Part shown: positions 17,406-19,737 of the stretch, piece after piece
How positions within the stretch are numbered: position 1 is the stretch's first letter
Layout: every line of letters starts with the position of its first letter
From: Actinomycetospora sp. NBRC 106375
GTDB taxonomy: Bacteria; Actinomycetota; Actinomycetes; Mycobacteriales; Pseudonocardiaceae
Length of the DNA: 64,000 nucleotides
Direction: 5' to 3'
Assembly: GCF_030269665.1 (NCBI RefSeq)
Contig: NZ_BSTS01000004.1
Coordinates: 124,001-188,000, forward strand
Notes under the pieces: model-generated
Databases searched by the model: none
What the model saw: only the letters and a program-made list of their open reading frames with translations
What the model was told of the DNA's origin: nothing
Made by a program: the position numbers and the translations under genes

Positions 17406-18014
17406 TCATCGGTCGGCGGCCGACGCGTCGAGGAACGCGGCCGGCGGCAGGGCGCGGGGGTCGCCGGTCGCCCATCCGACCGGGTCGGGGCCGAGGCGGG
17501 CCAGCGCGCGCACCTGGTCGGCGCACCACGGCGAGATCCCCGGGTAGGTCCCGGCGAGGACGTCGTCCCGGAACGGTGCCCAGGCCACGGTGCGGACCTC
17601 GTCGACCTCGCCCGGATCCGGGTCCCGGGGCGGGCCCGCGCTGCGCGCGGTGAACACCGGGCACATCTCGTTCTCGAGGACGCCGCCCTGCTCGGCGCGG
17701 TAGCGGAACCCGGGCAGCACGAGGCGCAGCCCGTCGATGGCGATCCCGAGCTCCTGGCGGGCCCGGCGCCGGACCGCGGCGTCCATCGCCTCGCCCGGGG
17801 CGGGGTGGCCGCAGACGGTGTTGGTCCACACCCCCGGGAACGTCGCCTTGCTCCGGGCGCGGCGGGTGAGCAGCAGGTCCCCGCGCCCGTCGAAGACGTA
17901 GCAGGAGAACGCGAGGTGCAGCGGCGTGGCGTCGTGGTGCACGTCCGCCTTGGCCGCCGTCCCCGCGGCCGCGCCGGACTCGTCGAGCAGCACGACCCGT
18001 TCGATGATCCCCAC
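17406..18014 (-). CDS. idi: Type 1 isopentenyl-diphosphate delta-isomerase
   Basis: Converts isopentenyl diphosphate to dimethylallyl diphosphate in isoprenoid synthesis. It has the Nudix-type fold of type 1 enzymes: the catalytic cysteine lies in TNTVCGHP, the metal/His region is HHDATPLHLAFSCYVF, and the catalytic glutamate is in ENEMCPVF; SPWCADQVRAL is near the C-terminus. GTG 18014 gives a normal 202 residues. The longer frame to 18071 adds a non-conserved basic stretch. Its upstream region holds a short tandem repeat and a strong hairpin, so it is likely transcribed independently of DUF1707. Confidence 0.9.
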   Translation of the reverse strand: MGIIERVVLLDESGAAAGTAAKADVHHDATPLHLAFSCYVFDGRGDLLLTRRARSKATFPGVWTNTVCGHPAPGEAMDAAVRRRARQELGIAIDGLRLVLPGFRYRAEQGGVLENEMCPVFTARSAGPPRDPDPGEVDEVRTVAWAPFRDDVLAGTYPGISPWCADQVRALARLGPDPVGWATGDPRALPPAAFLDASAADR

Positions 18015-18083
18015 GGGACCCCAGCTTCCCCGGACCGGACGGAAGCGGCATCTCGGAGCGGAGGAGGTCACCCCGCGGCGGAG

Positions 18084-18182: not shown

Positions 18183-18219
18183 GGTGGGCCCGGGCTCGTC
18201 CCTCGAGCCCGGGCCCACC
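18183..18219 (-). terminator. Perfect 16-bp hairpin, probable terminator
   Basis: Arms 18183-18198 and 18204-18219 are exact complements around the loop TCCCT. It lies downstream of DUF1707 and the iron box on the minus strand and upstream of idi. No T run follows, as usual in this genome. Confidence 0.75.
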
Positions 18220-18264
18220 TCTCGCCGCTGCCGCTGGGCGCCACCACAACACCCGCGCAGCGAT
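18183..18264 (-). ncRNA. Candidate iron-repressed small RNA (about 82 nt)
   Basis: The minus-strand -10 box TAGGCT (18276-18271) sits inside an iron box. Transcription would start near A18264 and stop after the 16-bp hairpin at 18183. The predicted RNA folds as a 5' hairpin (CGCTGC at 18262-18257 with GCAGCG at 18231-18226, plus GGG/CCC inside) with an exposed U/G-rich loop, followed by the terminator stem. There is no open frame with a ribosome site. The layout is that of the IdeR-controlled mycobacterial sRNA MrsI; sequence similarity is not claimed. No good -35 is visible. Confidence 0.4.
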
Positions 18265-18282
18265 GAGGCAAGCCTAACCTCA
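18264..18282 (-). promoter_or_regulatory. IdeR/DtxR-type iron box
   Basis: On the minus strand TGAGGTTAGGCTTGCCTCA matches the DtxR/IdeR consensus TTAGGTTAGGCTAACCTAA at 15 of 19 positions. It overlaps a TAGGCT -10 element, the expected position for Fe(II)-dependent repression. Confidence 0.6.
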
Positions 18283-18306
18283 GCTGGCGGCGGAGCGCCA
18301 GCCCCC

Positions 18307-18819
18307 TCACCACCGATCGTGCGGGCCCCGATGACCGCCCGGTCCGTGCCCGTGCCAGCGGCCGCGTCGAGCGTGGCCGAGCACGATGAAGAGCAGCGGG
18401 ATGATCAGCAGGCCGGCACCCGAGCCGGTCGTGGCCGCGCCGATCGCGAGGGCCGGCATCACGAGCACGAGCACCATCACCAGCGCGAAGACCGGCAGGG
18501 CCGCCGCCGGGTGGGGCCGGTGCGGACCCGGGGGCACCGGGCGCGCGCGGACCGCCGCCTCCTCGACGGGCGCGGGCGGGCGCGGCAGCGGCGGGTGCGG
18601 CGCGGGCAGGTCGGTGAAGAGGGCCTCGAGATCCGACCGGCGGACCGCGACCGCGGCGCGCTCGGAGCGGTCGCCGAACTCGTCGACGTCGAGCCGGCCG
18701 GCGCCGAGATGGACGCCGAGGGCGTCCAGGGCGGCGGTCCGCTCGTCGTCGGAGACCCGCAGGTCCGGCTCCGGGCGCCCGCCCGCCGCGCCCGCGTCGT
18801 CACCGTGGTCGTGATCCAC
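18307..18819 (-). CDS. DUF1707 protein with C-terminal membrane hairpin
   Basis: A 170-residue protein. The N-terminal DUF1707 domain reads PDLRVSDDERTAALDALGVHLGAGRLDVDEFGDRS (about 18-52), a short SHOCT-like helical module frequent at the front of actinobacterial membrane proteins. A proline-rich linker and two adjacent hydrophobic segments follow (VFALVMVLVLVMPALAIGA, GLLIIPLLFIVLG). The tail is rich in Gly, His and Arg (RRGRWHGHGPGGHRGPHDRW) and could bind metal. GTG 18819 has GGGAGGAG upstream. The function is unknown. An iron box lies just past its 3' end. Confidence 0.75.
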   Translation of the reverse strand: MDHDHGDDAGAAGGRPEPDLRVSDDERTAALDALGVHLGAGRLDVDEFGDRSERAAVAVRRSDLEALFTDLPAPHPPLPRPPAPVEEAAVRARPVPPGPHRPHPAAALPVFALVMVLVLVMPALAIGAATTGSGAGLLIIPLLFIVLGHARRGRWHGHGPGGHRGPHDRW

Positions 18820-18960
18820 CGCGCCTCCTCCCGTCGCACGGACACCCCCACGCAGCGCCCGGCCGGTCACCCCATCGTGCGCCTCCCGGCGCGGAATCGC
18901 CGTGAATCCACGGGGCGACCTCCCGACGACCTCCCGACGACCAAGGGCAGGCTCAGCTTT

Positions 18961-18996: not shown

Positions 18997-19737
18997 ATGG
19001 CCGTGAACAGCTCCGACGCGGGCGCGACGGACGGACCCGCGCACCCCGAGCCCCACGGCGGCGAGCTCTCGCAGCGCCTGAACTGGCTGCGTGCCGGGGT
19101 GCTCGGCGCCAACGACGGCATCGTCTCGACCGCCGGGATCGTCGTCGGCGTGGCCGGGGCGACGGCCGAGCGCGCCCCGATCGCCACGGCCGGCGTCGCG
19201 GGGCTCGTCGCCGGCGCCGTGTCGATGGCCCTCGGCGAGTACGTGTCGGTGTCCAGCCAGCGCGATTCGGAGAAGGCCCAGCTCGCCAAGGAGAAGCGCG
19301 AGCTGCGGGAGACGCCGGGCGAGGAGCTCGAGGAGCTCGCCGAGCTCTACGAGGAGAAGGGCCTCCGCCGCGAGACCGCCCGCCAGGTGGCGGTCGAGCT
19401 GACCCAGCACGACGCGCTCGCCGCCCACGTCGACGCCGAGCTGCACCTCGACCCCGACGAGCTGACCAGCCCCTGGCGCGCCGCCGCGGCGTCGGCGGTG
19501 TCGTTCGTGTCCGGCGCCCTGCTCCCGCTCGTCGCCATCCTCGTGACCCCGACGTCGTGGCGGGTGCCCGTCACGGTCGCGGTCGTGCTCCTGGCGCTCG
19601 GGATCGCGGGCTGGATCAGCGCCCGTCTCGGCGGCGCGACCCCGCGCCGCGCGGTGCTGCGGGTGGTCGTCGGCGGCGCGCTGGGCCTGGCCGTCACCTA
19701 CGGGATCGGCTGGCTCGTCGGCGGCGCGGTCGGCTGA
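18997..19737 (+). CDS. VIT1/CCC1-family iron/manganese transporter
   Basis: Membrane protein of 246 residues that probably exports Fe(II) or Mn(II). Helix 1 with LNWLRAGVLGANDGIVSTAGIVVGVAGA and helix 2 with GAVSMALGEYVSVSSQRDSEKAQL are family signatures. A glutamate-rich cytoplasmic helical insert (about 90-155) corresponds to the metal-binding domain. Three C-terminal helices follow (VSFVSGALLPLVAIL, VAVVLLALGIAGWI, GALGLAVTYGIGWLVG). The ATG has CTGGAGGC just upstream. A Fur-like palindrome precedes the start, fitting metal control. The 3' end overlaps the convergent WYL gene by 40 nt. Confidence 0.87.
   Translation: MAVNSSDAGATDGPAHPEPHGGELSQRLNWLRAGVLGANDGIVSTAGIVVGVAGATAERAPIATAGVAGLVAGAVSMALGEYVSVSSQRDSEKAQLAKEKRELRETPGEELEELAELYEEKGLRRETARQVAVELTQHDALAAHVDAELHLDPDELTSPWRAAAASAVSFVSGALLPLVAILVTPTSWRVPVTVAVVLLALGIAGWISARLGGATPRRAVLRVVVGGALGLAVTYGIGWLVGGAVG

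Follow-up and report, generated by a model that had tools for sequence, protein, structure and literature searches.

The window analysed here is a 64-kb stretch of the genome of a member of Actinomycetospora, and the locus of interest lies on its minus strand, between the gene of a DUF1707 protein and idi. Read from 18300 to 18183, the minus strand presents the hexamer TGGCGC, a further 18 nt, the hexamer TAGGCT embedded in the sequence TGAGGTTAGGCTTGCCTCA, and then a segment with the appearance of a two-hairpin RNA. The features, all on the minus strand, are as follows.

17406..18071, minus strand: idi, isopentenyl-diphosphate isomerase (NF002995), downstream neighbour, outside the unit
18183..18264, minus strand: predicted small RNA gene of ~82 nt, from conservation bins, fold and covariance model
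18183..18219, minus strand: 16-bp GC-rich terminator-like hairpin with a perfect stem, without U tail
18225..18263, minus strand: 5' stem-loop, from predicted folds and kept pairs
18241..18249, minus strand: apical loop UUGUGGUGG, proposed pairing seed, invariant in 17/17 aligned sequences
18264..18282, minus strand: iron box (IdeR/DtxR-type operator) TGAGGTTAGGCTTGCCTCA, 15/19 to consensus
18271..18276, minus strand: -10-like hexamer TAGGCT within the iron box, from sequence
18295..18300, minus strand: -35-like element TGGCGC, 18 nt 5' of TAGGCT, from conservation
18310..18852, minus strand: DUF1707 protein (PF08044), upstream neighbour, outside the unit

The RNA start near 18264 is predicted from spacing, and the limits of the 5' stem-loop are approximate (~18225-18263), the base of its stem differing slightly between predicted folds.

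Iron box, promoter-like elements and putative iron regulon

Rescoring upheld the operator proposed in the initial annotation at 18264-18282 (minus strand), overlapping TAGGCT: the box TGAGGTTAGGCTTGCCTCA agrees at 15 of 19 positions with TTAGGTTAGGCTAACCTAA, which we take to be the IdeR/DtxR consensus. The full consensus, allowed up to three mismatches, had no match in the 64-kb window, because the site itself carries four. The looser pattern TNAGGNNAGGCTNNCCTNA, allowed up to two mismatches, matched in the window only at 18264-18282, where the site scores on both strands because it is a palindrome; 4 of 100 shuffles reached at least two matches in the same scan. Across the 6.79-Mb genome this core pattern occurs without mismatch at two places, one of which is the sRNA locus, and its backward control was found nowhere at up to one mismatch.

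The -35-like element is conserved. The motif TKGCG occurs at a spacer of 16-19 in 16 of the 17 sequences, and in the closer of two clades within the genus the 20-nt bin containing it has a mean identity of 0.83 versus 0.49 and 0.62 in the flanking bins, the bin of 0.62, the one next to the RNA, including the first half of the iron box as well. A simple sigma-70 scan found nothing at the sRNA locus. Taken together, these elements place what appears to be an operator of the IdeR type over the promoter of the small RNA.

Core boxes with one mismatch number three in the genome, all of them on a single contig (C12) and near siderophore-type genes.

C12: one-mismatch iron box upstream of an L-lysine/L-ornithine monooxygenase gene
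C12: one-mismatch iron box upstream of a Peripla_BP_2 gene, with a FecCD permease gene nearby
C12: one-mismatch iron box between a chorismate-binding enzyme gene (Chorismate_bind) and an ABC transporter gene

By their annotation, the genes beside these three boxes look like siderophore genes. The second zero-mismatch box of the genome (L034:1501-1519) is situated between a truncated globin gene and the gene of a GAF/AAA-lid protein. A further site, L037:1501-1785, has an iron box overlapping the start of a lysine-rich, Cys-rich small protein of 88 aa (MGKGAKKDKE...KKCCRSTPRCKGCP), which has no Pfam or NCBIfam match, and two other box sites (L035 and L036) have no clear iron neighbour.

Two DtxR-family proteins are encoded in the genome. 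One of them, C3:288560, scored 314.6 bits to 7b1v and 263.1 bits to the IdeR structure 1fx7; the PDB chains that it matches best, those of DtxR-family iron repressors and IdeR, cover residues 1-240, nearly its full length, and on this similarity it is assigned as an IdeR. In genome G014 (L185), the iron-box-like sequence GAGGTTAGGCTGACCT lies directly 5' of the seemingly leaderless start of the main ferritin, which suggests direct IdeR control of ferritin; weaker versions are found upstream of the main ferritin in G001, G003 and G016.

Structure, conservation and neighbourhood of the RNA

The 95-nt RNA is predicted to fold with unusual stability (z = -6.2), and none of 200 shuffles was as stable. 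Its 3' hairpin proved to be as initially described at 18183-18219, with a 16-bp stem free of mismatches and a 5-nt loop; a simple scan for U-tail terminators found none at this position. The 5' hairpin was likewise recovered, but its supposedly open U/G-rich loop is partly closed by U-G pairs in the predicted fold (GUGGU). No variation is seen across the 17 sequences in the apical loop or the bases that flank it (GGUGUUGUGGUGGCG). Standard pairs occupy 99.5% of the alignment cells in which both partners have a letter. The covariation score exceeded those of all 500 shuffles. Three pairs in the stem of the 3' hairpin have two-sided changes within the genus; the count of pairs with such changes is not above that of shuffles, 482 of 500 of which reach the same, because the variation is split between the two clades. 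In the 5' stem-loop, all pairs with both letters are kept in the 16 distinct sequences, with no two-sided changes, and in callitridis and chibensis the 5' stem has one base fewer on either side. The ~82 nt had been considered devoid of open reading frames; GTG-started frames do exist within the RNA, but none of them represents a conserved peptide, divergence setting in after five codons.

The occurrence of the RNA was analysed across the genus, family and order. When a 17-mer of the RNA was scanned over the genome contig collection, 77 records were obtained (a set from which the records of the window's own genome were possibly left out), of which 15 belong to Actinomycetospora. All 15 carry a box of 14-16/19 located 9-45 nt upstream, and in the other 62 records the box scores at most 13/19. 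A covariance model (R1), built from 17 genus sequences that match it by construction, gave 85-113 bits in 17 of the 18 genus genomes among the 297 family genomes searched, the sole miss within the genus being a genome that is 59% complete (G013). The initial annotation had called for such a search in related genomes and had named the conservation of box and hairpin between sister species as the point on which its proposal might fail. On both counts the outcome was favourable, with the RNA in 17/18 genomes and the box in 15/15 records. A blastn search with the region, which employs no model, also detected the RNA in its own genome and in 16 of the 17 other genus genomes, the shared part (q70-141) beginning just 3' of the box.

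Beyond the genus, no strong R1 match was observed in the 279 other family genomes (best E = 0.0013); among 397 order genomes two genus members matched strongly, and the other 395 were without a strong match. The weak R1 matches elsewhere are GC-rich hairpins without a box: the best box beside them scored 12/19 in the family (checked in 13 of the 17 genomes outside the genus that gave a match) and 10/19 in the order (9 of 9 checked). Rfam 15 gave no matches in the window. The best bacterial sub-threshold match was to Scr3920 (RF02828), a Streptomyces sRNA, at 21.5 bits versus a cut-off of 88 and in the 3' hairpin only, and Actinomyces-1 RNA (RF02928) reached 15.2 bits versus 39.1; the RNA is a member of neither family.

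Conservation centres on the -35-like element, the box and the RNA. In the close clade (9 sequences), identity to the window is 0.92-0.99 in five 20-nt bins that extend from the second half of the box through the hairpin. Outside the RNA it is at most 0.64 after the hairpin and 0.25-0.68 before, except for the peak of 0.83 at TGGCGC. Within the RNA the bins of the 5' hairpin and loop reach 0.97-0.99, versus 0.92-0.97 for the terminator. The far clade (L013-L019) shows 0.95-1.0 in the RNA core and a peak of 0.96 in the -35/box region, whereas identity is 0.71-0.81 in the segment that separates box from core and 0.28-0.77 beyond the hairpin. Its members have 34-36 extra nt between box and core, in which a further hairpin is predicted in 7/7, and the RNA should therefore be ~124 nt long in this clade.

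In the close clade, idi is located 3' of the RNA core on the same strand in 9/9 loci, at distances of 159-887 nt, and DUF1707 is upstream of the RNA in 8/9 loci, the contig ending in the ninth. In the 7 loci of the far clade, the RNA directly follows a co-oriented gene of a WYL-domain protein, which is partial in L163, and neither DUF1707 nor VIT1 gave a match in these loci, of which L163 extends just 354 nt upstream. There, idi occurs at 1538 nt in one locus and is absent within 4.0-7.6 kb in L098, L108 and L163; three further loci, extending 0.2-1.6 kb downstream, are too short to judge. Box, RNA and hairpin are thus kept together and the neighbouring genes differ between the two clades, a pattern of conservation and synteny that argues for an independent gene. 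By sequence, the segment qualifies as a conserved, structured non-coding RNA independent of its neighbours.

Beyond DUF1707, the window contains the gene of a VIT-family protein (18997-19734, plus strand; PF01988), to which the MbfA iron exporter model is weakly similar, far below its cut-off. A VIT-family gene lies at this position relative to the RNA in 8/9 close-clade loci, with no match in the far-clade loci, and the presence of this iron gene near the RNA may be a coincidence.

Search for target messages

The loop was used for target prediction, as the initial annotation had proposed, and no result beat the controls. The exact 9-mer anti-seed CCACCACAA occurs at 25 places in the genome, one of which is the sRNA locus itself; judged by eye, these include no start site of a recognizable iron gene, and the 12-mer does not occur in the genome except at the sRNA locus. 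The pattern CCACCAC between a Shine-Dalgarno sequence and ATG, sought at ATG starts in 6 genomes, was found at 77 places (73 without overlapping repeats). Of the latter, 36 passed a coding filter and were assigned by manual grouping to 21 groups, one place being that of a sigma-factor-like protein. Five groups are iron proteins according to Pfam/NCBIfam, namely Dps, MftC (the model being applied to the G003 copy only), a 2Fe-2S subunit, a desaturase and a P450; several other group names (MurC, AspS, MarR, etc.) were assigned by reading the sequence letters. The sequence GGAGGAGGCCCACCACATG, an apparent conserved target start in 6/6 genomes, was rejected because it is coding sequence inside boxB (TIGR03225), where it encodes EEAHHM, and boxB was set aside as internal.

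A scrambled seed yielded 25 places in the same 6 genomes versus 77 for CCACCAC, because it is proportionally rarer (41 versus 120 occurrences in 173 kb of background), and CCACCAC between Shine-Dalgarno and ATG is not commoner than expected from how often the 7-mer occurs overall. The pattern read backwards gave 51 places in the same search. The scrambled set is too small for iron proteins to be compared fairly (24 of its 25 places were examined, with few real starts).

In the window's genome (GGAGCTGACCACCACCATG) and in G006, CCACCAC is located between the Shine-Dalgarno sequence and the ATG of dps; in G011, G012 and G003, thus in both clades, it has the same position before the ATG of mftC (mycofactocin maturase). 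When the duplexes of 18 dps-like start regions were ranked against 148 background starts, their median was within the best 6.8%; with 18 of 200 shuffled loops doing equally well, this pairing does not reach significance. In the far clade the dps ranks are ~44% for G003, G014 and one copy of G016, 19% for G001, 88% for the second G016 copy, and 4-7% for G007 and G010. The main ferritin gene, for which 15 of the 17 loci were included, showed no consistent preference, with 5 of the 15 in about the best 8% and a median of ~32%. As predicted targets not above controls, dps and mftC are weak leads only.

A probable iron-responsive small RNA and comparable known systems

Several other explanations for the locus were considered. 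The box and hairpin might form a leader or attenuator that confers iron control on idi, which lies downstream on the same strand in all nine close-clade loci. This arrangement would, however, put a strong hairpin between the box and idi, over a distance that ranges from 159 to 887 nt; conservation drops directly after the hairpin, and in the far clade, in which idi is found once at 1538 nt and is missing from three loci, box and RNA are nevertheless kept, so that we regard an idi leader as very unlikely. It is just as improbable that the hairpin is a mere terminator of the upstream DUF1707 or WYL gene and that the box is a decoy or arose by chance. Similar GC-rich hairpins without a box occur elsewhere in the order, so the 3' hairpin belongs to a common type, and it would also halt upstream read-through, but a bare terminator explains neither the 5' hairpin and loop, which are conserved as much as the terminator or more, nor the retention of the box in 15/15 Actinomycetospora records, and the upstream gene differs between the clades.

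The invariance of the codons GTG TTG TGG TGG CG- could be taken to indicate a short iron-regulated peptide that begins at the GTG of the loop (MLWW...). Yet the frames diverge among species after 5 residues (VLWWRPAAAARG, VLWWRQRQRREV, VLWWRPRWLRKR), their lengths run from 18 to at least 200 codons, and a Shine-Dalgarno sequence is not evident before the GTG; such a peptide is extremely improbable. A genuine IdeR-controlled RNA might instead bind protein as a sponge, or serve a purpose other than iron, without pairing with iron-related mRNAs. The lack of significant enrichment over the target controls would fit such a role, whereas the existence of the dps and mftC leads, and of a loop that forms a single short invariant seed-like stretch as the available part of a study of MrsI describes for that RNA (PMC11188477), speaks for pairing; we consider this alternative unlikely.

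The reading we favour, with fair confidence, is a free-standing small RNA gene under repression by iron-loaded IdeR. An operator over the -10 element, a short RNA, an exposed invariant loop and a terminator together suggest an antisense regulator that acts in trans and is made at low iron. When iron is plentiful, IdeR would occupy the box over the -10 element and block transcription. When iron is scarce, the promoter would open, and RNA polymerase would start near 18264 and stop at the 16-bp hairpin, producing an RNA of ~82 nt (~124 nt in the far clade). This RNA would present the invariant loop UUGUGGUGG, which may base-pair with mRNAs at CCACCAC-like stretches lying at the start codon or the ribosome-binding site; such pairing would reduce the expression of iron-storing or iron-using proteins. 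The sequence itself shows the box, the promoter-like elements, a conserved structured RNA that is independent of its neighbours, and an encoded IdeR; transcription, repression by IdeR, pairing as the mechanism and the iron-sparing purpose are what we infer.

Iron-sparing sRNAs that are released by the iron repressor at low iron are represented by RyhB and its analogues, which are controlled by Fur. The Actinomycetospora RNA would share this regulatory logic, with a DtxR-family repressor instead of Fur. In the table of a 2022 review, as far as it was available, RyhB is placed under Fur and no sRNA is listed for the iron-sensing DtxR (PMC9294342); in the accessible portion of a genome-wide study of C. 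glutamicum DtxR the term 'small RNA' occurs in the reference list only (PMC12327846). The portions of the literature covered by our search contained no description, for Actinomycetospora or the family to which it belongs, of a small RNA under iron control, and MrsI was the only IdeR-controlled sRNA met there.

According to two reports (PMC11188477, PMC8628891), the mycobacterial MrsI (ncRv11846) is ~100 nt long, has an IdeR site at its promoter and a predicted terminator, carries a short seed and a single-stranded apical loop, and lowers bfrA, hypF and fprA; the available text of one of them locates it between blaI and rv1847 (PMC8628891). The Actinomycetospora RNA is similar in its ~82 nt, the iron box over its -10 element, the 16-bp hairpin and the 9-nt apical loop. 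In contrast to MrsI, it is not beside blaI, its neighbours being DUF1707 or WYL upstream and idi or others downstream, and it has predicted leads only where bfrA, hypF and fprA are the reported targets of MrsI. The comparison with MrsI is one of published description and position.

The original suggestion of an iron-sparing counterpart of MrsI is plausible and partly supported: the genome encodes an IdeR and has three boxes beside siderophore-type genes, but the predicted targets are not above controls, the neighbours differ from those of MrsI, and the searches beyond the genus returned no sequence relative. Owing to its different location and the lack of a detected relative outside the genus, the RNA should be filed as a new small RNA, presumably controlled by a DtxR-family protein, and not as MrsI. 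It is best read as analogous to MrsI, i.e., as an IdeR-repressed trans-acting sRNA. The product of the locus is most likely a small regulatory RNA, turned on at low iron in Actinomycetospora, and its purpose is probably to save iron as the known mycobacterial RNA does. A more far-reaching version, which we put forward as a rather unlikely conjecture, is that the RNA is genus-specific and of an origin independent of MrsI and RyhB, with the same iron-sparing role, and that its 9-nt loop covers the starts of both dps (iron storage) and the [4Fe-4S] protein gene mftC, so that iron scarcity would also lower mycofactocin-dependent metabolism.

As a defined gene with one invariant loop, in a genus of soil bacteria, the locus lends itself to testing. 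A second RNA that shares the promoter logic of MrsI and has no detected relative beyond a single genus would point to the repeated emergence of iron-sparing sRNAs under IdeR.
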